This document shows positions 3,014 through 63,176 of a stretch of DNA of 64,000 bases, piece by piece; the first letter of the stretch is position 1, and each line of letters starts with the position of its first letter. Both the position numbers and the translations under genes were made by a program. The notes under the pieces were generated by a model, which was not told the DNA's origin, did no database searches, and saw nothing but the letters and a program-made list of their open reading frames with translations. The stretch spans positions 50,235,885 to 50,299,884 of the forward strand of contig CAIIXF020000001.1 of NCBI GenBank assembly GCA_903813345.2. Direction: 5' to 3'. The stretch comes from Owenia fusiformis. Lineage: Eukaryota > Annelida > Polychaeta > Sabellida > Oweniidae.

Positions 3014-6000
3014 CTGAAATAAACATAGAATTATCTTCAGTTTAATTTTACCTCATTGATGACTATCATTCCATAAAAAAATTATTTCCCCGAAACTGAA
3101 ACAATAACTTGCATGAGACAATTTACAGACCACCTAATCAGTTCTAATCTTTTAGTTTGACAATAATGTTGTTTTAACCTTGTCAAACTTTATTATCTGA
3201 ATTAATGTATAATTATATACGAGCCTGGCCATAGGAAAACCGGTCTTATCACAAAAATTAAAATTGTTCAACAGAGCCAAAATTGTGCCCAAGATTAAGA
3301 GGGAAATGTGCTAAATTCAAATCCAACATTTTGGTCTATATATGCAAGGAAAAATTGTTAAAACATAAGTCATGGCTCATTTGAAAGGTATCTTTGTGCT
3401 TTTTAAGATAAACAAAAAATCAGAATATTGAAAAAATCTGTGATAAGACCCCTTTTCCTGTGGCCTGGCTCATATATATATCTGAAATAAATGGTACTAG
3501 CCGTATAAAAATGTCAATGAATGTATATAAATGGTTTTACCTCAAACAGTATTACAAAGCCCAGTCTGAGAGCCAGTAAATGCCAGTAGAACAATGAATA
3601 CTCTCCGTTATCGTCTCGGAACCCTTTATATCTAAAATAAATGTTCATGTTTTTTAATAACTTGCTCTCAAACTATTTGTACAATTACCTAGTGGATTCA
3701 TTTTAACTTGGTAACTTGGTAAAATATTGTAAGTTATTGAATGATTTGAAGGGCCATACAGGATATATTCTGTTCCAGAATTCCGTATTGGAACGAGACG
3801 AAGAATATCGAGACAGAATATATCCTGTATGGCACTTCAAATCATTCAATAACGTTTTTATCGTGTGATCCTCTGTATTGCTACGGAGATTTTACAGATC
3901 ATACGATAATTCATTATGCATTATGTTCAAATATTTACAGCATGGGTGATTGCTTCGACTAAACAAATGTACATTCATTGTCAAAAACAAAGTATGTGTA
4001 TGTACATAAAGATGTACAGAGAAAGCAGTGATAGCTCCATCAATTCAGATATCTTCCAAATAACCTTCTAATATGTGGAGATTATCATATTGTACTTTAG
4101 ACGAATGAGTTTTTGGTAAACAACATTAAAATAAGATGCCTAAATGTGTGAAATCTTAGTTTTTTGACTTATTGCTGGCTTGCATTCTAACAATAAGAAA
4201 TAAAAAAAAACATATCCAAAAATCAGACCAAATTATCTTGATGTACCTGCAAGTTTGAGATAGTGTTCCATTGGGTGATGTAGCCAGTGAGAAGTTCACA
4301 TAGCCCTTTAGTTCAGAGTCATACTGGTATCTGTAGAGTATCTTGGGCAGGAACTCCGATGTGAATGCTATCAGAAACGCCTAAAACGCAGAGAGTACCA
4401 TATAGAGATTGAAAAGTAGTTTTTAGCAACACAAATTCAACTATAAGACAAGGTTTTAACATGCAGAATGTTGCCACCTGCCATTTATTACAAACATCAA
4501 ACACCATCCACTTCTGACGGTGACATACAAAACAGAAAGTTACTCATGAGAAATGCAGATCCAATTGAACAAAATATATTTCATCAAATCACTTATCATT
4601 GTGAACATTTAATGATAGAAATAAACAGTTGTGAACATTGTCTTCTATTTGCAAAACCTAACTACAGTATAATGTAATATATATATTTTTTTTTTCTAAT
4701 TTATTTATTTCACTTCATTGTTTACATATACAGTACATACAGTATAATGTAATATACTGGTATGACACCATAAGTTGAACGCTTTTTAGAGGAACCAAAG
4801 ATATTCATTTACACAGGTGTAACACTGTATTACTATTACTGTACATACATTGCTGACTACAGCCAGTTGAGCTAAGGAATCCAGGAGAGTGAACCAGACC
4901 CCTATATCTTGAGCTCTTTCCGCAACAGGCCGTCGATTCTCTGTCACAAACTTGGCAGCATCAAGGCGTATTTCAATCCAGTTGTTTAAGAGAGCAAATA
5001 GTGGTGCTAGGGGAAATGCAGCCACGAATATTGTGATGAAACCAAATTGGAGCACTGGAAAATATATATTTCCTTATTATCATTCAACCATGAACCAAGA
5101 GTATAATATTCATGCGCTAGCAAAACTACCCTAAGAATACTCTGAGATATCCAAAATATATCTCAAATAAAGTATTTAAGGGAAATTAAATGTGATATAA
5201 TTTTATGTACTTGTGGACAAAAAATACAAGACTAGAATTATCCCTTGTTAAAAAAAATGAAGACAAAGCTATTGTTTTGAAAATAAGTTTGATATTATGG
5301 TTTTGTACCCATTTCTAGATATTCTGAGAATAGTCCCTCATCCTCTATGAGCTCATAGTCTTCCTCCCAGCGAGATTTCTCAACATTCTTCCCTGTCCCT
5401 AATTTCCACTTCCGCAACTGAGCCTTCACCTTCCTATAATGAACATGCACATCTAATATTAGTCCTGATTCACCTACATTTTAGTAGTTTTGGCTCAGGT
5501 ATCTTAAACACAAATAAAATCTGAAGAGTACTTGTGAGGATTTCCTACATGCACTTTTTCATTTCAATGTGCTTTGATCAAATGCAAATTTCTATCTTAC
5601 AAATCTAAACAATGCAGATTAGTGTTCTATTTAATAACAATCATTATTTATGTTAGGACACATCATACTGATACATGCATATTATCTACTCTTCATCCCA
5701 AGCTAAACCTAATTAAAGCTTTAATATAAATTATAGCAAATCTGCAATAGTATCCTATTATATAGCATTTGGGAGTGTTAATAGTTTTCAGCGCAATGGC
5801 AGCTAAACAAATTGAGAGTGTTTTTGCATGCCTGTTTATTTTTTGATTTCACTGATTCAGCTTGGCTTTTCCTGAAAGTCTGGCTGTTTCCTGATCCCTA
5901 AGATAAACACTCAAGTGGAGAAAAACTTGGGATATAAAAAGTGTAAGAAATAGTTACACTTCAAGTGAGATACTGTTAGCATTACAGGAAAATATCAAAC

Positions 6001-9000
6001 CATATTTTGTTACATAACTTGTGTTTAACCAATCACAGAATGTGTAACATTACAGTGAGGTAATAAATATGAATATCATTCTTGGCTACTTCCACGAAAG
6101 ATACTAAAGGCTAAAATCAAGAGTAAATAGTTCAAAACTGGGAGACCCCTCCTATTTACAAGATGTAAAAATTAACTTACGGCATTATAAGCTCTTGGGC
6201 ATTGTTGATGACCTGCTTGCCAATCATGATGACAGCAAGGATCTGGGCAAGCTCTATCAGACAACCTCCATTCTGACACTACATGTATGCATATATAATA
6301 TGGGTTAGAAATTTTCCACGGTCTTAAGAGTCTTATGGTCTCCTTTTACAAGGTACCAGAACAATCCCCAACAACACTGATGCTTATACCACTCTATAAT
6401 GAGCCATAGACAATGATGCCTATAACATTGTAGCCACATAGCCCTACAACACAAATGCCAACCACACTGCAGCCATATTCAACACAGATGCCTATTACAC
6501 TACAATCCCATCTAACACTGATGGCTATCACACTATAGTCACATTATACAAGACTTATGGCTCTTACACAATAGCCACATATAACACTGATGCCTGTTAC
6601 ATTATAGCCACATACAACACTGATGCCTACCAGACTATAGCCACATACAACACTGATGCCTATCACACTATAGCCACATACAACACTGATGCCTATCACA
6701 CTATAGCTACATTCGACACTGATGCCTACCACACTTTAGCCACATACAACACCTATGCCTATTATATTATAGCCACATAAAACACTGATACCTACCAGTC
6801 TATAGCCATATACAAAACTGATGCCTGTTACACTATAGCCACATAAAACACAAATTCCTACCATACCACAGCCATATACAACAATTATGCCTACCTGACT
6901 ATAGCCATATACAAAATTGATGCCTATCACACTATACACACATACATTGTTTGAATGTCTTAAATACACTATATTCAACCTCACAGAATTCATTAAACTC
7001 TCCTCTTTAAGGGGCATGTCATGTATGGGAAAAAACTTTCAGATGCTGTATCTACACTATACATTACATACAACAGCAAAAGAGGTACGATATCTAGTAC
7101 TGTACACCTAAAGGAATTCATGAATGGCTACCTACCACACTATAGCCACAATACAGGAACCACACATTCTTCGATGGTTTTATTTGTGTAATGCTGAGAT
7201 AAGTTTATCAGATTTGTATTCTAGTTCTGGAGAGATGATGTAATCCTTTATAATCCAGATCTTGTTATACATTCTACTTTAAAGGGTTGAATTTCTCCAT
7301 CTTATTCTATTTTTAGGGGTTGAATTTCCCATCTTATTCAATTTTTAGGGGTCGAATTTCCCTGTTTTAAATCGTAACTTGATTCAATAATACTTACAAC
7401 AGCTCTCAAGGTACAACAGGCTGTCATATAGTGGACTTTTACCCCAAAATTTCTATCAATGTTTGATGCCAATGCAAATATTACGGGACAATGCCATCCA
7501 TCTACTACTTACGGGACAATGCCATCCATCTACTACTTATGGGACAATGCCATCCATCTACTACTTACGGGACAATGCCATCCATCTACTACTTACGGGA
7601 CAATGCCATCCATCTACTACTTACGGGACAATGCCATCCATCTACTACTTACGGGACAATGCCATCCATCTACTACTTACGGGACAATGCCATCCATCTA
7701 CTACTTACGGGACAATGCCATCCATCTACTACTTACGGGACAATGCCATCCATCTACTACTTACGGGACAATGCCATCCATCTACTACTTACGGGACAAT
7801 GCCATCCATCTACTAATTACGGGACAATGCCATCCATCTACTACTTACGGGACAATGCCATCCATCTACTACTTACGGGACAATGCCATCCATCTACTAC
7901 TTACGGGACAATGCCATCCATCTACTACTTACGGGACAATGCCATCCATCTACTACTTACGGGACAATGCCATCCATCTACTACTTACGGGACAATGCCA
8001 TCCATCTACTACTTACGGGACAATGCCATCCATCTACTACTTACGGGACAATGCCATCCATCTACTACTTACGGGACAATGCCATCCATCTACTACTTAC
8101 GGGACAATGCCATCCATCTACTACTTACGGGACAATGCCATCCATCTACTACTTACGGGACAATGCCATCCATCTACTACTTACGGGACAATGCCATCCA
8201 TCTACTACTTACGGGACAATGCCATCCATCCACTACTTACGGGACAATGCCATCCATCCACTACTTACGGGACAATGCCATCTATCTACTACTTACGGGA
8301 CAATGATCTCCTGGGCGTTACCAATAATTTGTTTTCCGACCATGATGACTGCAAGTTGCTGAGCTAGTTCTATGAGACAGCCACCATTATTGCACTATAA
8401 CACAATACACTAGCTACTGACAATATCAAACCAACTATAACACTAAACTTTAAATAAAAAAACTAAAATTGATTGAATATTAGTAGAATAAATTAAGATA
8501 TGCAAGCATGTGTCTTGTTTAATCATAACATTGTGTTAAATCACAAATGAAGAACATGCAAAAAAGAAATATTAGAATAGTTTAAAGCATCAAGATTAAG
8601 AGGAAATTAAATGAGCAAGAATGCAATTTTAGAATTAACAAATAGCGATAGAATTTCAATATCAAATATTTCAGTGAGATAATAAGAGTGCAATGTCTGA
8701 TTTATAACATATCTTTAGTGTACCTATTTCATATTCAATTCAATTTATTTCAGCCATATATTACACTCTGGTACCTTCAGGAATCAGGGAAATGAATTTC
8801 AAATCTGATTCATCGATTTTTGTTTTGGTGTCACACGCATATTTATTGATTTTGAATAGAAATACAATTAAGGTATGTTAAAAACTGCTATTTTGCCTGG
8901 CAATAAGTATTTGGTCTCCACACATATATTTATTCGTCAATGTGGATTAATTAAGTATTTTCATGCAAGACCAGTGTGAAATGTATAATGCATCAAGTGC

Positions 9001-12000
9001 ACAAACATCTAACCAAAAGGCATTAGTGCACAAACATATAACTAAAATATTAGTGCACAAACATCTCTATCCATAAGCAACCAAATGGTTCATGGGTTGT
9101 CACTTACGGGATAAAAATCTCCTGGGCATTGTTAATGGTTTGTTTACCCACCATGATGACGGCTAGTTGTTGAGCAAGTTCTATGAGACACCCTCCATTA
9201 TTACACTGGAAATCATTACAACACGTCCATGCTCATGCTAAAGCTACATCAACATGACATCTAAACATGAAACGGGTTGAGGTAAACACTCAAAGGGTGT
9301 GGATTATTCACAAAGACAGATCTTTTCGTGCAATGGACCTGAGGCCTGATGATATAGTTATTGCATCTCGAAATAGGGGATGCAATGACTAATTAATCAG
9401 TTGAAAAATATAACAGGCACCCCATTCGTCACCTCAGAAATGACCTTGAAACCCAGAGGGACGAGAAAATCCGTCACAAAATTGTTCACAAAAATTGCTC
9501 TTATTTGAACAATTTTCATCCAATTCACACAAAAATTGTTTTAAAACGTGTAGAAATGATCTCTGCCATCTAATTTTACTAAGTTGAGCATCTAAAGTTG
9601 AAAAGGTATGTAGTAAAATGTCAAAAGGTGGCAAAAATGAAAAATTCTCTGGTTTCAACCAATACTAGAGCCTGGGATTCAAGAGGTTAATAAGTCATCA
9701 ATGAATCCATTAATCAGTCAGCCCATAAATCATGATTCTGGGTTCTGTTTTTAGGAATGTCTAAAGGATTGGTATCGATATGGTGAACTGAATTCAACAA
9801 TGTTTTTCTCTTAAACCAATTATTGAACACATTCTGTAAAAAACGGTCCTTTATGTAATTTTGACCGATTGACAACAATTTAATGCAAAAATTATTTATA
9901 CATATCTTATATAATTATTTTTTGTTTCTTTTTACCAATTCTTAAGAATGAAATAAAATATCTTTCCGAAGCCTTTGGAACAAAATAGCATATATATACA
10001 ACATTTACTTAGACCTCTCAGTATTCTAATTTTACAAAGGGAATTTTGGTTGATTTTACAAAAAGTATTCAAAAAATTAAAACAAAAACCCCCAAAATAG
10101 ATAAAAATTAAGATTAACCTTTTATTTCATTAACAAGATACTTTTTTAAAATCAGCCAAAATTTCCTTTGTACAATCACAATATGGTGAGACCTAAATAT
10201 GTTTTGTTTATGTCATTTTGTTGAGGTTCGGATAGATGTTTCATTTCATTCCGACCATATGATACCAAGAACAAAAGAGGTGTCTGATGTGGTTTGTAAA
10301 ACAATATAGACAAAAGTATATATATTTATTTCAAATTATAATGTCACCATTCAAAAGATGACTATTAAATTGACGATGTGTAAAATTTTCAGAATTTTTT
10401 GATGACTGGTTTAAGAGAAACGTGTGTTCACCATATCGATACCACTCCTTTATGATTAAATTGTATGTCATGGTTTCATGTGAAGGTAAATACTGTTTTC
10501 TAAGAATCCCATGTTTGATAATATTTACAGACCCCTGGTTCCTTTCCACTCATATCTAGCCAGTGGGCCATTTCGGGTAATTTCACTATTCTGTTGACTG
10601 TACACCCTTTGAGTGAAACATTTAACAAGAACCACAAGTACATTGCATTACAAGTACATACATACATTCCCCTCCAAAAGTTTGGCAACATTCCCAACAT
10701 TGGCCCATAAGTTTTGGAAAAATTCATCCAATAAATTTATAACTTAATGTAACTTTGGAAAAAATTCAAACTCAGAATTAAAACAAGTCATTTAGATATT
10801 ATCAAATGATCATTGATGAATTCATGGTTGCCAAACTTTCGGTGATGGGGGGGGGGGAGTGTACTACATCAACAACCTGACAACAATACTAAGATAAGTT
10901 TAGACTAGTAATAGAAAGTATTGAGATTAAACATGCATTGAATAAATCAATTTTCGATTTTATCAGTCAATATTAGAAACCATGTGAATATTAATGATGG
11001 TGACAAAGTATCAGATTTATCAGTTTTTACCTGATTTTATCAGATGTATATAAACTGTGTGGTTGAATTTTAAGTGTGCATATTTTAGTCAAGTTAGTTA
11101 GTTTTAGAACCAAACAGTTTGAACTCACATTCTTGTTATTTTTACATGTATTTTAAATAATGTTTATTTCACTTTCTGTACTTTATTCAGTTGCATTTAT
11201 GAACATGAGTGTTTTCAGGTATTCAATTTACAAATCAAAAAGTGTTGTGAAGCTAGTTTCATTTAATGAGAATATTTGAATAGCCAAGCAGGACAAACCT
11301 CTTCGTTCCTTAGCCCCAATATAGTGTTATAATGGCCAGGGTAGCCCACAAACCTGGAACAAAACATTATTATATATTCATATGCACATTCTAAATGCAT
11401 TATTCATCTAAAGTAGCACTTGTCTAATCCAAACGTCACTGGGACCTACCAAAAGTGTCCGGATTAGCCGGTGTTTACATTTTAAGGTATTATGGCGTCT
11501 ATTCAAACCAAAGATTGGACTTGGGATTATTTTTTAGATCAGAGAGTTTAAAAAATGATAATCCTGTTGATCAATAACATTACGATTTAATCCCTAGCAT
11601 GCAATCAAAGTGTTGAAAGGAATCATATGTAATCAGAAAGACAGAATAACTTATTGTTCGGATTAATGACAAACTATTTATGGGAACCTTAATGTAATTT
11701 GATTGATCATTAAAAATAAGTTAACCATACTACCACTATTGAGCAATAATAACAAGTGTTGACATGTCTGTGTCAACATGTCAGCTAATGTAAACAAATT
11801 CTAGCCACAAATGAGGAATTGTATCATCGAGTATAATCTGTTTTTTCCTAGTTGTATCATATGTATTATAACAGCTGATAACACATGATATGATGCAGCA
11901 AGTAATGATAACAAATTATACCAGTTTCAGACGGGAAACTTCAAAATTTTCCGTATCATTCATTGTTATAATATTGTCTGATACCTCAACCTATGATAAC

Positions 12001-30000: not shown

Positions 30001-33000
30001 TGGTTATAGCTACCATATTAGGAGAGAAATGGCCTGGCCAGGAATGTTCCTTTAACAAAGCATTACAAAGCTCAGCAAAGCTTGACTCAAAGCGTAGGTA
30101 AGCTTAACAGAGCTTGGTTCAAAGTGGGGACCCTAGTCTTCACGGTCTGTCACCGCTTGACACGCTTTGATTGTTTTGATTGTTCTGGCGAGAAACCAAC
30201 GGGGTCTTCTCATTTGCATAATCAGGTCACCTTATACCGCGGTATAGAGCTGGGTAAGGGAGAAAACTGACCCCTCTATACACCATTGTGTAATGCAGAT
30301 CATATAAAGCCCCTGATGTTGTGTCGTTTCATTTGGTACACAACTAAGCCCTGGGTATTAAATAAGCCCTTGATACGTGTACATGTTTATTTTAATCTCA
30401 GTCATAAACTCTGCAGCCAATGAAAAGCCATGTTTTTGTTTTTATCACCTAGCCCTTTCACTGAAAATGTCAATGCATGGGATCGCAAAGTAGTAAGTTA
30501 TACGTAATAATACAAATAAAATTACAGACTTTTTACAATCTGGTTTGTGGTTCGCGAGCACAGATCTCTGTTCGCGAGTGAAGAAATATGTTCGGGACCA
30601 AGGAAATGATGATGCACGGCTTGAGATTTCTTGTTCACGACGTTAGAATCGTGGTTTGAGCCCAAGGAACATAATTTGCAGGCTCAAAACTGATGTTCGC
30701 GTTGTTGTTAGACTAGGAGGTATTCCACGTTTACCCGAAGCCTTTTTATTTTTAAGTTGGTTCACTACCGTATTGATCTCTTCATATATTATCCTGTAAC
30801 TAAGTTCGTCAAAATTAGACTCGTTTTCTAGTTTTTTCAATATTTTCAAAACGTCTTTGTCATCAGTATTGTCATTTGAAAACAGTTTAGAAAAAATGCA
30901 TGATTTTTCAATTCAGATGCCTCTATAATTATATCAGAAGGGTTAGATGTTTTACTGTCTTCTGAGGCTGCTTAAAAGCTTCCAATATTTCAAAGGATTA
31001 TTTAGTCCAAATTCTTCCAGTTTCGATAATATTTAATCTGAATGGATTTTTCAGATTGTCTTGCCTTAACGGACGATGAAGTAACTATTATGGCCAGTAA
31101 CTTTCTCGCCACAAGAAAAAACATCCATGTTTTAAATGGAAACATGAGCTATTTGGATTCGGGCCCGGTAGATGCCAAATATGTAGTTGTTTTATTACAC
31201 GGAAACCCCACTGCTGCGTATCTATGGAGAAATATTGCACCGTATCTCATTCAACATGGGATACGTTGCGTTGCGCCTGATCTGATTGGAATGGGACATT
31301 CATCAAAAATTCCTAATTCGTGGTACTATGTATCAGATCATGTACGTTATATAAATGAATGGTTCACATTGATGAAGTTTCCACGCAAGATCAACCTTGT
31401 TGTACATGACTGGGGAGGTCCATTAGGATTCAACTGGGCAATGAACAACAAACGCCGTGTTCAGTCTTTGACCTTTTTTGAGGCACTTGTGACATATTCC
31501 GAAAATTTAGATGCTATGTACGATAGCATGCCCATATTTAAAGAATTTAGGTCGCCAGCGGGAGAAAAGCTAGTTTTAGAAGAAAATGCATTCTTTGACT
31601 TGTTTTACGAACTATTGCCTGGCGTTTTGTCTGACAAAGATAAAGCCGAATATTTAGTGCCTTTTTTGGAACCTGGTGAATCGAGACGTCCTATGCTTAC
31701 TTTTCCAAGAGATCTTCCCAGAAAATCAGAGCAGCGTAGCTGCTTTGTGAACAAGATGACGAAAAAGTATTCATCGTGGCTTGCCAAGACCAAGAGATTC
31801 CCCAAGCATGCAATTCTTGCATACCCTGGTATACTAACTCCTGCAATGGCAGATACAGTGAAGGACTGGGCAAATATTGAGTTCACAAATGTGACTGGTG
31901 ACCGCCCAATGTTACATTACTTTCAAGAGGAAGCACCAAGACCCCTTGGAATGGCAATTGAGAAAATTCTTGTGAGGGTCTTGAAAATTAATACGCCGTT
32001 ATAAAAAGATACTAAATCTTTTTCCTGAATTGTTAGATATATGATATCTATGAGCAATTTTGACGAATTGCAGGCTAAGCTAACGAAGATCTTAGATATG
32101 AGCCCTAATTTTGGTGACATTTTATCATTGCAATTCATAAAACTGTAGCTAAACTGAATGCTACATTTTGTTTTTTGATGTTGTGTACTTATGGTCCTTG
32201 ATTCCTTTTCTCGTAACTTTAGATAGAGTATGAATAAAGAGTCCCATGATCTTGTGAAATAAAAATGAAATATGTACAATATTCATAAGCCATCGGGTTG
32301 GTGTTTTATTTAAGGAAAAATAATTTTGTAACATTCTTTAGAGGAAATTTAGACATGATTGCATGGCCTTACCCGTGCAAATAATGCACGGGGCGAAGTC
32401 TGAGTACATTACCAGGATGGGTTAATATACTCGTATGATTGAATGCTTTAAAATGCAATAAAGAATGATACAAGTTTTTCTTATCGCAACTCAAAAAATG
32501 ACATTAATCTAGTTCTTCATAAAATCATAATGCACTGTGATGATGTCACTCTTTAACCAAAAATGACACTGCTCAGTTCCTAATCAAACCGTAAGGGGCG
32601 GGGTCAAAATATCGATGTTCATATGGAGACGAAAGTACTTTCGCGAGGGGGGAGGGGGTTTTTGGGCACTTTCGTTGACCAAAAAAACATCGATAATTCG
32701 GATCTGATATACAAAAAATAATTGGACTTACCCACTTTTTCTGGCACTATGTTCTGATAAAAAGGCTTGTTTTCAATAGTTCGTGAGCTTTTTTGTGTGA
32801 CAGGTCCAAAATATCGGTAGATAAAGACGATAATTCGATCATTTTTCAAATAGAGTTCAATGCAGTTAAATTGCGAATGTGTGTTAATTCACCGTAATAA
32901 TAACCCGGCAAATAGGATACGATTATTAATCAATGTTTTTTTGAAGTGACCTAAGCTTTCGTCTAGAGGGGGGGTGGGGGGTTGTTGTCCAAACGAAATT

Positions 33001-39000: not shown

Positions 39001-42000
39001 CTGAGTTTGATATGTTTATGTGCCATCGACCTCACCTGTATAGATTTCCTATAATTTCTTAATGTAATATCTACCTTGCTGAAAGATAATAATTCTAATA
39101 AATCACTTGACTTTTTGACATTGCATGATAATAAGAAAAAAAGTTTGTGTTTATTATTGCAAATGGTGCTAAGCCTGGAGATACCCTCGTGAGCATCGCA
39201 GAAAAGTTGGAAAATATGCTGCCTTATAGTTTCATTCAATTTTACAGTAGCATGTATTTGAATGGAAGTGATTCATTAAAGGGGATGGGAATGTTAACTG
39301 CTGAATTAAAGGGGATGAGTAAGTAAGAGCTGAATTAAAGGGGATGGGAATATTAACTGTTGAATTAAAGGGGATGAGTATAAGTAAGAGCTGAATTAAA
39401 GGGGATGGGAATGTTAACTGCTGAATTAAAGGGGATGAGTAAGTAAGAGCTGAATTAAAGGGAATGGGAATGTTAACTGCTGAATTAAAGGGGATGAATA
39501 AGTAAGAGCTGAATTAAAGGGGATGGGAATGTTAACTGCTGAATTAAAGGGGATGAGTAAGTAAGAGCTGGATTAAAGGGGATGAGTAAGTTAGAGCTGA
39601 ATTAAAGGGGATGAGTAAGTAAGAGCTGAATTAAAGGGGTTGAGTGAGTAAGAGCTGAATTAAAAGGGGATGAGTAAGTTAGAGCTGAATTAAAGGGGAT
39701 GAGTCAGTAAGAGCTAAATTAAAGGGGATGAGTAAGAGCTGAATTAAAGGGGTTGAGTAAGTAAGAGCTGAATTAAAGGGGTTGAGAAAAAATATATTCT
39801 TCAAAAACTAACAACATCCTGAATGTTATAATGCGCGAGTGGGGCTTACTAGCAAACGAAAGACTTGTGATTTTCTCTCTTTTTTACCACAATGTGTGTG
39901 AGGGCATTATATAATATCATATTTGAGATAGATCAATTATTAGCGCAGATGGTTAAAGGAGATCATGTTTAGCACATAGCAATAGTATCATATTGTTATA
40001 TAACACACGTATTATATTCTATATGAAGACAAGACATGAACACTCTATTCTTTGGTATCCATTCATTTGTAATCTTAGTATGTAATATCTGACAAGATTT
40101 GTCCCTAAGACAATATACTATGCAGTTATTCTCTATACATATTATTACCTCTTGAGATAAAATTCATTATTGTCATTGTTTTTCCATATTACCACAATTT
40201 CAGGAGATGAACATCGAAAGAGATGCTAATTAGTTAGAGGTTTCAGATGATTAAGGACAAGTGTATGTGTTGATGCAAATTTATTTTGTGAAACATTTGG
40301 ATTAATGGATCATAAAGCCTGTAATGAAGTGCATGATTTTGGCTACTCTAACCAAACATCTTATGCCTCAGGCTCAGGTTCTTAAAAGATACCTTTATCT
40401 TCACTTTTTGAGTTTAAGAGAAGACTCTGAACTCACTGAGCCAACAAGAGCTTGTTGTCGAAAGAGGGATGATTTTCTATGCAATGGTCATTTCCTATGA
40501 AGTCATTGTTTCCCTAGTATTGACCAATGCCTTACTTTTGCTAACATATGAGTTGAAATAACCAGACTGTCTAATGATGAGAGAAATTCATATATATTTT
40601 CACTTTAATCCCCCAGTTTTCAGCAGTGGCTGTGAAGTTCAAATATCTAAGGCCAATACAGGGCCTCAGCATTCCAATTTCCAACAGTCATGCACTTTAG
40701 CAGCCACATACGTAATGGCCCGTGGCATATTTTAATATTCTGACTGCACGGTATAGTACCACAGTATCCAGCTATAGAGCAAATATGACTGCGACATAAA
40801 GCAGTAGGAAAATTAACAAGAGCACTGACTACAAAAATAACAACCAACCTGTAATGGAGCTCGCATATTGAGGTCTTCAGCATAAAAACACAGCACATCC
40901 CAAGGGGCGTAAATTTTCTGGTAAAACGTCATCTTTTTCTCTCCTTGCACAACATCCTGTAATGTAATTAAGTCTTTGTACATGAAGCTGAGACAGCACA
41001 CAAGCCACTGGGGAATGCTATATTTGATGAAATAGGCTCTGGCATATTGTTCTTAGTTGAACAGACATGTATGAGTTCATTATTCTGTGATATACAATAC
41101 ATGAATGATAATCAGTTTATATAGAAGTAGGCACTCATCCCTGCAAAGTGAATCCCTCAAGTTAATATAGAAAACTTTTTCATAAAAATGAACTCAGTTC
41201 GGCTCAGCAAAGTGAATTATGCAAGTTAAAATATAAAAAATAGTTTTTTTATAAAAAATGGCATCTTTGTTCACTCGGCTTCAGTCGGTCGAACGAGTTC
41301 GGATGAAAACACTGAAGACCAAGAGTGCGAAGATGAAAAAATGGCATAAACTCTATAATTGTTTTCCTAACACAATTTCATGAAAATGTACATGAATTGT
41401 TAATCTTAATAATACATGGTAGACATGCTTGCATGCGGGTGATCATTATATCATTCTGTATTTAGCTGACATTAATAAAATATGTAAATGAATCAATTAC
41501 ATTACTACTGATGCACGTTTATATTTCAACACCTTCGTGACATCATTATATGTATTTATTTTCTCAATCAAACAATCAATATTTGATTCTTTGATAATGA
41601 TGATTCAGTTTGAAGGAAATATCATAACTTGCTTTCACATTTAAATATTATAGAACATCAAAGATGTAAAAGAAATATTCTTTGTACAAGAAGATCTTGA
41701 AGAATTAATATTATAAAATTTAAGCAAACCTCCCCTGGCCAAATATTCTTTCAAAACCATGCAATTATTCACCATTTGACCACCTTTCATGTGATTTTGG
41801 GCCACAATTGTCAAATCTGATCCCCCTGGAATTTTATAAAAATGTAACCCCCTTTGGCAAAAGCTGGCTACAGCCACTCACTGTAATCAGACACACAACA
41901 TTAAATGTCAAACAAAAAGTAATAGAAACAATTGGACTGTAGTTGAGTAGAGAAGCAAGGTGTATCTCACAGACAGAAGTGTTTGAGAGGTTATGAATGT

Positions 42001-57956: not shown

Positions 57957-60900
57957 GTAAAAACATTTTTATAAATCCACCGAACCAAAACAGAACATAT
58001 TATGTTCCTAAATTAAGTCAATAACAAAGGTAATTTTAAGAAGGCAGAGGCAAGAAACAGTTTTTCGAGGCAATGTATTTTACGACAAAAATTAAGCTGG
58101 ACATTGGGCGGGGTACTGGAGAACGAGTTGTGCTTTCCTTTGTTTCTTATCTATTTTCTTTCAATTTCGTTACATTTTTCCCGATGGTTCCTTTTTCATT
58201 GTCCTTTGTGCTTTACATACATTTTTTCAAATTAGCGCTTATCGTGATTCAAAATGTGTTGGCCTAAACTTCAAGACTGAGAACCTTGCAGTGGTTGTAA
58301 CAAAGGTTTTTGTAGCATATTTTTTCATATGATTTAAGATCGTCAAAAGCACATCTCAAGTTGTAGGTGTATATATAAAGTTTGTGTACTGTATCTAAAT
58401 GGGATCTACTGTTTTGAACGAGTCTGAAGAATCTGTACAAGGAGGACACAATTTGTCTTTATATAACTCAAAACACAACGGATCCTTCAGAGACTGTCAC
58501 TACAACTTTGTATAGACCCAATTCAGTTCATATAATGCATTTTTTTCTTTCTACCCTTTCCATGCAAGGTGCGATGCCAAGCGGTTGGCAGTCCATGGCG
58601 AACAATTATTTGGTAGGAAGACAACAGCATTGGTGCAATGTACCAGCGCTTTCAAACTTATCTCATGCGAGACAAAAGTACATTAGTATTCCATTAGACC
58701 GCCAGCAAGATGGTTCAGATCGATACACGTCTTGCCATTACTATTCTCTAAACTACAGTGAATATTCTTACGAGGAACTAATGAGTTGGAACAGAAGTGT
58801 GCGACTAAATGGCGCCCGTAGGATCAAATGTGATAGCGGTTGGGTATACGATAGAAGTCTTCATGTGTCAACATTATTAAGCAAAGTATGTGTATCCCTT
58901 TTTCATGTAAAGACATTTTTTCACATACGTCCATTTTAACATATGTTTTCTCGATATTTCGACTGCGTTCGACATTTTGTCCAAAAAGCCTGGCAAATAT
59001 AACCAGATGTACAAAGTATTTTTAAACATTATTTAAAGTATAGCATGAATTTGGGTATTATCAATAACGAACAGATACTTTATATCATTAATCTTTGGTT
59101 AGATATTATCAATGAGATTCCCCAAAGATCATTATTTTACTCCCTCCTATTTTGGTTTGCACATCAATGTCAATCAACCAACAGTTGAAAAATTGATCAT
59201 AGAAATTCTAAAGAACCTAGAAGCTTTGGTTAAGTTTATCAATACACATGCTTTTAATGTCATTATGGTATGTTATAGTGGGATATTGTCTGTGACATAG
59301 ATTGGCAAGGACCTCTTGTATCAACTATATACATAGGGGGCATGCTGGTCGGATCATTACTATCTGGGGTTATCTCTGATAGGTAAAATAATCCCATTTC
59401 GATACATGTCTCTAAGATATTACAAAACGGATGTTTGTGGCAATATTTTACTGTTTCCTCAAATTCAAATTATTTTGCCGTAACGTAGTCCAGTTCAGAT
59501 GCATTTTATCAATTTATTTCAGATTTGGAAGGAAGGTGGCTTTGATGGCTATGATAGTCATTGAATTTATATTTGCATTCGCTGGAGCGTTTATGCCAAA
59601 CTACCCACTTTTCTGTATTTGTCGCTTTGCTGTTGGTGGATCTGCAATTGCAATATATATCATAGCCTTAGTATACAGTAAGTTACCATATTTGATTTTG
59701 TTCCAATGTGCATGTAACGTTTCCTGATTGTTAGGCATATGCATCAGGGATTCCAACCAAATGTAACACCAACTGCTTATTACGTACATCTATTAGGAAT
59801 ATTAATACACACGTCAATCTCATTATCAATTTTATGTCATTATCATTTTTATGTTCAGTTGTAGAAAATATTGGAGCTGTGTACAGAAGCAAAGTTTTCA
59901 TTGCACCATTTTTCCTCTCTGGCTACGCAGTGCTTTCTGGGTTGGCATATGGGGCAAGGGAATTCGAAAACCTACAGGTGGTCATGGCTGTACCACGTCT
60001 TGTTTTCTTCTCATTTTTCTGGTATGTACGCAATCAGTTAATATGTAGTGATGTTACATGATAGAATGTCTTTAATTAAGCCACGACACGGTTAATCAAA
60101 CGTTCATGTTAATAAGGGTCATAAAGAATAAGATAACGTTTTTCAAAATGAAAAAGCAGAAAGGACCAGATGTGTAAAACAAAATTTAACTCATGTTACA
60201 GTGAGTGAGATATTTTTCTCATTGTTCTTCTGGTATGTAGTCTTATACTAATGTGCACATTTGATTATTCGACTGTTTTTTTAAACACAGGATCATCCCA
60301 GAATCTCCTAGATGGCTAGTGTCCCAGAAACGTCAAGACGAAGCCATAAAGATACTAACGTATATGGCAGAAGTTAATGGTCGAACAATGCCTGATAAAA
60401 TAGATTTCACTGAAGAATATATTAAGAATGATACAATTGATAAATTGGATGGTGAGAATGACAGCAGGACAAAGGGGACAATAGTAGACCTTGTTCGAAC
60501 ACCAAGAATACGGGCACGCTACTTCATTATGTGTACAATATGGTAAACGCAATGTTCTTTTTACATAACTCTGAGACATGCATAAATACCCAACTGGCCA
60601 ATCATTTATGATACTTTATGACCGTTTCCCCTTATTAACTATGGAAATCTAAGAGAATGTGCATGTACTAGCATCGTCCAATTGATTATATATGAAACCA
60701 TAATGCACTGAAAACTACTGTTTCTGCTCGTTCGACCATATTGGGTGTCTCAAAAAGACTTTTTGACAAGTATTTTCTCGGCGACCGATGAACCAAACTC
60801 ACTGAAAATTTGTATAAAGAATCCTTAGAAATTCAAAATAGCATATCGAAAATTCCCATATCGGAGCTCTGCGATGAGAACTCTATACTGTTTCTTCCCA

Positions 60901-63176
60901 AATATCCCAAATCCATGCATTCTCAAAATTCATGGGAGGTGATATTGTTAAAATATATAGATTAATAAGTGACTTTTGCATTGATACTGGTTATTTTGAC
61001 ATACTTTCAAAAATATGTATTATATGAAACCAATCTCTTACATATTCATGACACTAGTAGAAAATACCATAAAGTGCCTCAAGTAAAGTTTTCAACGAAT
61101 TTGGCTGATCTATTGCTGGGAAATTACTTGTCAAATTGCTTCCCATTTTTTGGTACAAACGCTATGAAGTTCTCATTGCGTTGCTCCGGTATGGGATCTT
61201 GCCATCCTATCAATATTTACTTAATCTTTATCATATTTTTACACCTTGCTAACGATACTCTCGGGCTACTCTGTACGAATTTTTAGTGAATTTGATCAAT
61301 CAGTTGCCGAGAAAATACTTGTCAAAAAGTGTCTCATTTTTGGGACAACCGATATATACCTTGAATTAATGCATTCAAATATGCTAAGCTGATTGACGGA
61401 GGCACGCACTTAGCATACTTGAAATGTCTAATGTAGGTTCGTGACTGCGGTGTACTATGGGTTATCGCTCAACAGTGGTGGTCTCGCTGGGAGTGTGTTC
61501 GTGAACACTACCATCTCTGCTGTGGCAGACATCATTGCTTGGCTCTTCTGTATTAATTCGATAGGAAGAGTAGGAAGGAAATGGCCATTGGTTGGTGCAT
61601 TGATATTTGGAGGAATAGCTTGTCTTTTATGCATTCCATTTCTATATCAACGAAGTAAGTGTTGTTTATGCAAAGCTAGTCAACAATACAAATGTCCAAA
61701 CATAATCAGTCGACTAAATAACGATTCGTTTCAAATTTTCTTTCAATGGTGCATTGCAGCTTCTCAGATGTGATATACTTCATGACACAAGGAAGTTCTA
61801 TAGCGTACTCTGTAATGGAAATGCCACGTGTAATATTCTAATCTTACATGCCAAACAATCTTTATTTTTAGATTTGCAATATTTTGTCGTTATATTGTCG
61901 AATGTTGGTAAGATAGGAGCGGCCGCTTCGTTCCAGATCATCTATACGTACACATCCGAGATGTTTCCTACTGGCATCAGGGCAGTTACAGTGGGTTCAG
62001 CCTCTATGGTCGCGAGGATCTCTGCAATGGCATCACAGCAACTCGGCCAACTGGTAATTGCTATTTAGTGTCACTCCGGCAGATCGTATTCCTGTTGGAG
62101 AACATTTCACAAGGGGCACTCTGCGCGAGGTTCCATTTTGGTTCGTTTTTGCGCATGCACATTAAATCCAGCAATTTGGTGGCAGAAAGCTTTCGTATGG
62201 TATAAGATAAAACCGAACCAATTGCAGAAAATCAATTCAATCATGGGAATGAAGTACTTTCGTTTTTGCACATGCGCGAAAAACTGAACCAAGTGAAAAC
62301 CAAACCTCGCGTAAATTCGAACAATTTCTTGCAATCACTTTTAGTACATGTCGCAATCGGAACTCATTGATAAAGAGTGCTAAGTGTTTTAATTTATTTC
62401 ATATTTTAGGATAGCGTGTGGTTACCCCTACCATCTGTTATATTCGGAAGTACCACAGTAGTATCTGGCTTCTTAGCTTTATTTCTACCAGAGACACTTG
62501 GAAAGAAACTACCAGAAACTATTGAAGACGGGGAACTATTTGGCACGTACGTACACTGGCCAGAGTTCCCCCATTATTTCATTTCGTTAAATGAGAGTCA
62601 AAGTCAGATTTAGAAGGAAACCTTTATAAGGAGGGTACATTTCGGCTTGTTTCCCGCTTCAAAATACTCAAAAATATAATAGTTTATATTTCGTTCACAT
62701 GAAAACTCAAGATTTTTATGTAGTTTTATGTATGTTTTATGTATCATTTCTTGTATGTTTATATTTAGGAAACAATAATTATGTCCAATGATTGATAACT
62801 ATACATGTATTGTTGAGTTCTTTTGGCATAAAAACTCGTTTATGTATTCCTCATTTTGAATAGCGTTTTCCTAGAAATATGTACCTATAAATAATAATGT
62901 ACATGTGTTGTATATGTAACATAGGAGAGACTTATTAACTGTGTTAGCGACCTCACCAGTATTGTCACATTACTGTTTCATTATTTCAGGAAAAAGTATG
63001 ATGACCAAAGTATGGAAATAGCCCAAAGGAATGGACGGATACATACAGCGACTGATGCTGGACACGACAATCATGGTTATGTTGTTGGTGAACGTTTGAA
63101 AGAGAATAATGAAGACTCTTCTAGTAATGTCAAACCGAACTATGATAATCTAAATACAGAGGTGACACGAATATAG
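57875..63176 (+). CDS. SLC22-like: SLC22-family organic ion transporter (OCT/OCTN-like), ten exons
   Basis: Exons: 57875-57956, 58569-58885, 59279-59382, 59523-59677, 59859-60021, 60291-60542, 61437-61654, 61872-62053, 62410-62546, 62990-63176; all GT-AG. Total 1797 nt, 598 aa, against about 550 usual for the family. A 12-helix major-facilitator carrier of the plasma membrane for organic cations, carnitine or anions. Diagnostic features are MRFDEVLQEHVGGFGPYQ at the N terminus, a large extracellular loop with N-glycosylation sites at N57, N89 and N102, W-D-I-V-C-D after it, the MFS motif GVISDRFGRK (163-172), IIPESPRW (275-282) and SIGRVGRK in the second half. The hydrophilic tail ends EVTRI, a possible class I PDZ ligand. 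PESPRWLVSQKR resembles OCT members, but substrate cannot be assigned. Confidence 0.95.
57957..58568. other. SLC22-like intron 1, nothing recognised
   Basis: Plain AT-rich intron. Confidence 0.5.
58569..58885 (+). CDS. SLC22-like exon 2 (helix 1 end and large extracellular loop)
   Basis: 317 nt, acceptor TGCAAG, donor GTATGT. Encodes SAMPSGWQSMANNYLVGRQQ, HWC, three N-x-S sites, SCHYYSLNYS and CDSGWVYDRSL. Cysteines C50, C83 and the one in CDSGW are the typical loop disulphide residues. Confidence 0.92.
59279..59382 (+). CDS. SLC22-like exon 3 (helix 2)
   Basis: 104 nt, acceptor TTATAG, donor GTAAAA. Encodes WDIVCDIDWQGPLVSTIYIG and GGMLVGSLLSGVISD, ending within the Arg of the DRFGRK motif. 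Confidence 0.94.
59523..59677 (+). CDS. SLC22-like exon 4 (helices 3-4)
   Basis: 155 nt, acceptor TTTCAG, donor GTAAGT. Encodes FGRKVALMAMIVIEFIFAFA, then MPNYPLFCICRFAVGGSAIA. The R-F-x-x-G-x-x-x-x-G spacing of helix 4 is kept. Confidence 0.94.
59859..60021 (+). CDS. SLC22-like exon 5 (helices 5-6)
   Basis: 163 nt, acceptor GTTCAG, donor GTATGT. Encodes VENIGAVYRSKVFIAPFFLS and GYAVLSGLAYGAREFENLQV, corresponding to the E-(F/I)-x-G-x-x-x-R region. Confidence 0.93.
60291..60542 (+). CDS. SLC22-like exon 6 (PESPRW and central cytoplasmic loop)
   Basis: 252 nt, acceptor ACACAG, donor GTAAAC. Encodes IIPESPRWLVSQKRQDEAIK, a charged cytoplasmic loop, then TIVDLVRTPRIRARYFIMCT, the entry to helix 7. 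Confidence 0.95.
60740..61351. mobile_element. MITE in SLC22-like intron 6, about 610 bp
   Basis: GTGTCTCAAAAAGACTTTTT followed by GACAAGTATTTTCTCGGC is inverted at 61300-61351 (GCCGAGAAAATACTTGTCAA). The 105-aa plus-strand frame inside is not credible as a gene. Confidence 0.8.
61437..61654 (+). CDS. SLC22-like exon 7 (helices 7-9)
   Basis: 218 nt, acceptor ATGTAG, donor GTAAGT. Encodes FVTAVYYGLSLNSGGLAGSV, FVNTTISAVADIIAWLF and GRVGRKWPLVGALIFGGIAC. The YYGLSLN and GR-GRK motifs are family markers. Confidence 0.95.
61872..62053 (+). CDS. SLC22-like exon 8 (helices 10-11)
   Basis: 182 nt, acceptor TTTTAG, donor GTAATT. Encodes VVILSNVGKIGAAASFQIIY, TYTSEMFPTGIRAVTVGSAS. Y-(T/S)-SE-(L/M)-(F/Y)PT-x-(I/V)R is the classic SLC22 helix 10-11 signature. 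Confidence 0.95.
62122..62312. mobile_element. Short inverted-repeat element in SLC22-like intron 8
   Basis: GCGCGAGGTTCCATTTTGGT, TTTTGCGCATGCACA recur inverted at 62255-62312 (TTTTGCACATGCGCG, CAAACCTCGCG). Confidence 0.72.
62410..62546 (+). CDS. SLC22-like exon 9 (helix 12)
   Basis: 137 nt, acceptor TTTTAG, donor GTACGT. Encodes WLPLPSVIFGSTTVVSGFLA and LFLPETLGKKLPETIEDGEL. LPET-x-x-x-x-LP-(E/D)T is a family marker. Confidence 0.95.
62990..63176 (+). CDS. SLC22-like exon 10 (cytoplasmic C-terminal tail)
   Basis: 187 nt, acceptor TTTCAG, TAG stop at 63174-63176. A hydrophilic, Asn/Asp-rich tail longer than in most SLC22 members, ending TEVTRI. No strong polyadenylation signal was seen in the next few hundred bases. 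Confidence 0.85.

Follow-up and report, generated by a model that had tools for sequence, protein, structure and literature searches.

A 28-bp minisatellite in the predicted anoctamin-7 gene of the annelid Owenia fusiformis repeats the 5' splice site of the exon that it directly follows, so that nearly every unit carries a perfect donor. That exon, E2, lies second in a row of three tandem exon copies. Most likely the minisatellite is young and was nucleated on the E2 5' splice site; its exact unit occurs at a single place in the genome assembly. The reading that we consider probable, with some reservation, is that E2 is spliced mainly from the proximal donor, that the array is largely neutral and that any effect of array length would fall on the downstream copy, E3. 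The array alone does not establish a new mechanism.

Structure of the array

The window is the whole stretch of 64,000 nucleotides that was analysed, and the anatomy of the array was read directly from it. The array, E2 and the surrounding exons all lie on the minus strand:

11299..11353, minus: single-copy exon before the cluster
9108..9205, minus: exon E1, first copy, 98 nt; the copy in public Owenia protein P0001
8297..8394, minus: exon E2 ('15b'), middle copy, 98 nt; the next exon completes its last codon
8291..8296, minus: exon-proximal E2 5' splice site GTAAGT, CCC/GTAAGTAG
7481..8305, minus: 28-bp minisatellite, 29 full units and a 13-bp partial unit (unit alignment; TRF)
7485..8296, minus: register of 29 x 28 bp counted from the true donor, with 26 further perfect GTAAGT (unit alignment)
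6181..6278, minus: exon E3, third copy, 98 nt
5309..5433, minus: single-copy exon after the cluster

Read in the direction of the gene, the minisatellite unit is CATTGTCCC followed by GTAAGTAGTAGATGGATGG. The 29 full units occupy 8305-7494 and the 13-bp partial unit 7493-7481; TRF reported 29.5 copies with a 99% match. The first 9 bp of the array (8305-8297) are the final 9 nt of E2, from where the repeat enters the intron with no spacer. A preliminary description of this DNA had placed 29 x 28 = 812 bp (8296-7485) directly after E2, with GTAAGT at 27 of 30 boundaries, and both our unit count from the first GT and our recount of boundaries agree. GT is present at 29/30 boundaries, and those lacking GTAAGT carry GTAATT (unit 18), ATAAGT (unit 28) and GTAATA (the partial 30th unit). 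The consensus is matched by 24 of the 29 full units, while the remaining five have one change each. Units 2 and 3 share an identical change, and the array thus holds four independent changes. All 26 perfect extra donors have the same context as the true donor from -9 to +6. The 27 copies of GTAAGT fall within 825 bp of array; across the window, this strand has about 1.3 donor-like hexamers (four kinds) per kb, a figure that includes the array. E2 and E3 are separated by 2018 nt, of which the array accounts for 816 (40%). The same intron contains a second minisatellite (6438-6946; 33 bp, 15.4 copies, 75% match in TRF), about 160 bp upstream of E3.

Host gene

Judged by its predicted product, the host gene is anoctamin-7 (TMEM16G). 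The protein of the exon model contains the Pfam domains PF04547 (E 3e-153) and PF16178 (E 1.4e-30), and its nearest solved relatives are anoctamin-1 and anoctamin-6. Among the best 120 of 5738 protein matches, the first is an Owenia fusiformis anoctamin (98%), many are named anoctamin-7 or anoctamin-7-like, and the lower named matches include anoctamin-7 of Lingula, Crassostrea and Lineus. The assignment to anoctamin-7 was made from the domains and close matches. Built with E1 and the second TM1 exon, the model is contained in Owenia protein P0001 as an exact substring.

The TM1 exon of the gene is itself present in two 91-nt copies on the minus strand (20031-19941 and 18637-18547), the second of which is the one in P0001. 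Their peptides are 71% identical, and the 34 nucleotide differences fall as 8, 3 and 23 at codon positions 1, 2 and 3.

Three copies of one exon

E1, E2 and E3 each span 98 nt between AG and GT in equal phase, and their peptides are 79-88% identical. Third codon positions account for 13 of 18 differences between E1 and E2, 17 of 25 between E1 and E3, and 22 of 31 between E2 and E3. Since the differences are mostly at third positions, all three copies seem to be maintained as coding sequence. The reading frame stays open in all three versions with E1, E2 or E3 alone. It breaks with none, two or three copies, because 98 is 3k+2, and an early stop was found in all five such combinations tested. 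The layout is that of a mutually exclusive exon cluster, as far as arrangement and frame can tell. Tandem clusters of this type likewise combine homologous exons, here three of 98 nt, with a frame that needs one copy; unlike clusters of the docking/selector type, no docking/selector pairing was identified here. The only Owenia protein among the best 120 of 5738 matches, P0001, has E1. The segment encoded by the three copies presumably corresponds to TM5. TM5 of TMEM16 proteins lines the pore or groove. The intron before E1 contains a 27-nt inverted repeat (9762-9788 and 10426-10452), with arms 96% complementary and 637 nt apart.

Consequences of splicing at distal donors

The reading-frame outcomes follow directly from translation. 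Reading beyond the true E2 donor completes a proline codon and then meets TAA, and extensions of 1, 2, 3 and 29 units all stop directly after ...EIIVP (codon 417 of the model). All other extensions give the same stop because it sits in the first added unit. The earlier claim that use of a distal donor truncates the protein is borne out by these translated extensions, in which TAA comes right after the junction proline. In predicted pairing with the 5' end of U1, the E2 donor (-7.3 kcal/mol) does slightly better than those of E1 (-6.5) and E3 (-5.7), a point against a largely neutral array; the 11 donors of the gene's single-copy exons range from -3.0 to -12.3 kcal/mol.

Origin and genomic distribution

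The exact unit pattern has 27 matches in the 498,259,871-base assembly and 27 of 27 lie inside the array, a single place that is observed directly. Membership in a repeat family found elsewhere in the genome was rejected for the exact unit on this basis, in a search that would miss diverged copies. Tandem duplication at the exon end had been proposed as the origin and holds up well, because the final 9 nt of E2 are part of the unit.

As a repeat, the array is far beyond chance occurrence, and the closeness of its edge to a donor is less unusual than the repeat itself. Its position was compared with random placement in a simulation based on 31 TRF rows, which were merged by hand to 22 arrays with 18 in the gene span, and on 23 donors, 7 of them at exon ends placed approximately by tblastn. 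The upstream edge of any of the 18 arrays fell within 12 bp of one of the 23 donors with P = 0.19, and the probability that some array covered a donor was 0.78. Restricted to arrays no shorter than 300 bp, the class of the present array, the simulation gave P = 0.046 for an edge within 12 bp. This value is the one least favourable to coincidence and leaves room for a non-random cause of the array position, in a test of low power.

Tests for a function of the donor copies

Selection on the donor copies left no sign within the array, in a test that rests on four changes and has low power: GTAAGT, which takes up 6 of the 28 unit positions, contains two of the four independent changes (chance of at least two, 0.20). 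The many perfect donors can be explained by the young age of the array. Clusters of three GTAAGT were not enriched genome-wide, with 5968 occurrences against 5874 for the reversed pattern. At minisatellite-like spacing these comprise 3024 + 2944 clusters against 2949 + 2925. The counts include overlapping matches, which weights them by array length; for repeats they are lower bounds, and they are not specific to arrays adjoining exons. The E2-E3 intron has one AATAAA/ATTAAA, outside the array, and three neighbouring introns without such an array have 6, 4 and 3.

A special RNA structure of the array was rejected: when 1, 2, 4 and 8 units were folded, none did better than arrays built from shuffled units (z of +0.04, +0.73, +0.55 and +0.57, respectively). 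In the 8-unit fold, pairing is predicted for the GT of inner units (probabilities of 0.98 and 0.97, values without a shuffled-array comparison). An antisense partner of the docking/selector kind was likewise rejected, its -36.5 kcal/mol lying within the range of shuffled units (mean -34.6, range -44.1 to -29.5, n = 40), and no pairing partner for the array exceeded the shuffled controls within 11299-2700. An inverted pair of 15 nt at 93% (7535-7549 and 10698-10712) fits the variant unit 28 best and is regarded as chance by our own estimate.

None of the five tests, on selection, clusters, placement, folding and pairing, and polyadenylation signals, favours a selected role. The origin by exon-end duplication and the truncation stand from the preliminary description, while the sequestration of U1, the block of premature polyadenylation and the length-variable switch that it also proposed are left without support. 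A maintained array of U1 sites is weakly opposed by the two of four changes in GTAAGT, the cluster counts at the level of the reversed control and the single AATAAA/ATTAAA. A functional switch would be possible but is unsupported.

Precedents for donor-multiplying minisatellites

The Owenia array belongs to a known kind, as its anatomy indicates, because precedents exist for minisatellites that multiply a donor in human ABCA7 and IFI6, neither of which the preliminary description mentions. Its distinguishing features are that the exon belongs to a cluster of three, that most units hold a perfect donor and that extension meets a stop at once. As in ABCA7, the array begins at the exon-intron junction and extension by one unit leads to a premature stop. 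Unlike ABCA7, the Owenia array has a 28-bp unit that contains 9 nt of exon, a perfect GTAAGT and an in-frame TAA met at once; its exon also belongs to a set of three tandem copies, and the Owenia case is known from sequence alone. De Roeck et al. (2018, PMC5954066) describe a VNTR in intron 18 of human ABCA7 with a 25-bp repeat, which opens on the GT dinucleotide of the exon-18 donor, and 23.7 units in the reference genome. Retention of one unit is given there as 2 +/- 1%, with a frameshift and a premature stop, and as unchanged by VNTR length, while skipping of exon 19 is described as increasing with VNTR length (PMC5954066). The Owenia array suggests that donor-abutting minisatellites of the ABCA7 type originate repeatedly.

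The second precedent is the minisatellite of human IFI6, also known as 6-16 or G1P3. It reportedly has a 12-nt unit in 26 copies and can keep the reading frame. The Owenia unit of 28 nt with its immediate stop differs in this respect from an IFI6 unit that is said to hold the frame. The likeness lies in the offer of multiple donor copies to one exon, which would apply to Owenia as a matter of arrangement, with use of the copies on record in IFI6 only. The IFI6 minisatellite reportedly offers several splice donors (Turri, Cuin and Porter 1995), and two downstream repeat units serve as donors (PMC4526556). CeRep25B of C. elegans is described as a minisatellite in introns near alternatively spliced exons, and as a 24-base family with many sites, mainly on chromosome III, and with regulatory motifs; an effect on splicing is raised there as a possibility only (PMC4039745). 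The units of CeRep25B do not copy the local donor, unlike those of Owenia. Among the top-ranked literature results no title concerned the Owenia array, and we do not claim that it is unreported.

Proposed working of the array and alternatives

The array would have grown by slippage or unequal exchange, which would place an identical donor copy in almost every unit. By analogy with the known cases, E2, if chosen, would most likely be spliced mainly from the first donor or donors, a preference that would be due to the exon length and the upstream exon context. A minority of transcripts may be spliced from the second or third donor, be extended by 28 or 56 nt with the immediate TAA and be degraded. 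Otherwise the array would be largely neutral. Its length, if relevant at all, might act through the lengthened intron on the use of the downstream E3, as in ABCA7. Donor choice, decay and the effect on E3 are the steps that we infer.

Several alternatives assign the array a larger role. The 26 extra donors could compete with the true one to such a degree that most E2 transcripts end in the premature stop, which would turn the array into a length-dependent silencer of E2. The perfect donors in the context of the true donor (-9 to +6), the immediate stop on extension and the presence of E1, not E2, in the public protein P0001 are all consistent with such a poison extension. We nevertheless regard it as unlikely, given that retention of one unit in ABCA7 amounts to 2 +/- 1% independently of length (PMC5954066), and that the predicted pairing of inner-unit GT in the 8-unit array (0.98, 0.97) would hinder the inner donors. 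The coding sequence of E2 also looks maintained (13 of 18 differences from E1 at third positions), although the array might be too young for decay. Slightly more unlikely is a selector role, in which the cluster of U1 sites and the added intron length shift the choice among E1, E2 and E3 and the length of the allele sets the ratio. Such a role could draw on the share of the E2-E3 interval taken up by the array (816/2018 nt, 40%), a three-exon cluster whose frame is broken by 0, 2 or 3 copies, and the effect of VNTR length on the downstream exon in ABCA7 (PMC5954066). The observations come from one array in one assembly, however, with no sign of selection on the donor copies and no pairing partner within 11299-2700 beyond the shuffled controls.

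A U1 decoy, or a telescripting guard against premature intronic polyadenylation, seems highly improbable. The 27 GTAAGT in 825 bp stand against about 1.3 donor-like hexamers per kb and would suit such a role, but the E2-E3 intron offers one AATAAA/ATTAAA where the array-free neighbours have 6, 4 and 3. Least probable is an error of the assembly in the copy number of the array, by collapse or inflation. Near-identical units are difficult to assemble, yet the five full units with a change (the same one in units 2 and 3) anchor parts of the array, and the array lies inside a 62-Mb contig.

Beyond the favoured reading of a largely neutral array with proximal-donor splicing, we think it very unlikely that the array is a length-variable dial, by which the number of E2-donor units alters the ratio of E1, E2 and E3 in anoctamin-7 between individuals. 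If such a dial existed, the copy number of a splice site would be a heritable regulator of membrane-protein isoforms that differ in one transmembrane helix. The array also provides a clean natural test of spliceosome choice in an animal only distantly related to humans, with 27 donors that match one another over at least 15 nt and differ chiefly in distance.

Other features of the window

A further donor-bearing array, with a 29-bp unit and 18 donor-like motifs on the plus strand, lies at 39275-39786. The anoctamin gene runs on the other strand, and the array adjoins none of its mapped exons. The interval 31042-32004 (plus) forms one open frame of 320 aa, which matches the alpha/beta hydrolases (PF00561) and by eye resembles a Renilla-type luciferase or a haloalkane dehalogenase. 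The frame is on the strand opposite to the anoctamin gene, between the mapped anoctamin exons at 40959 and 24491. Several open frames at 58418-62613 (plus) look by eye like exons of an organic-cation-transporter-like gene.
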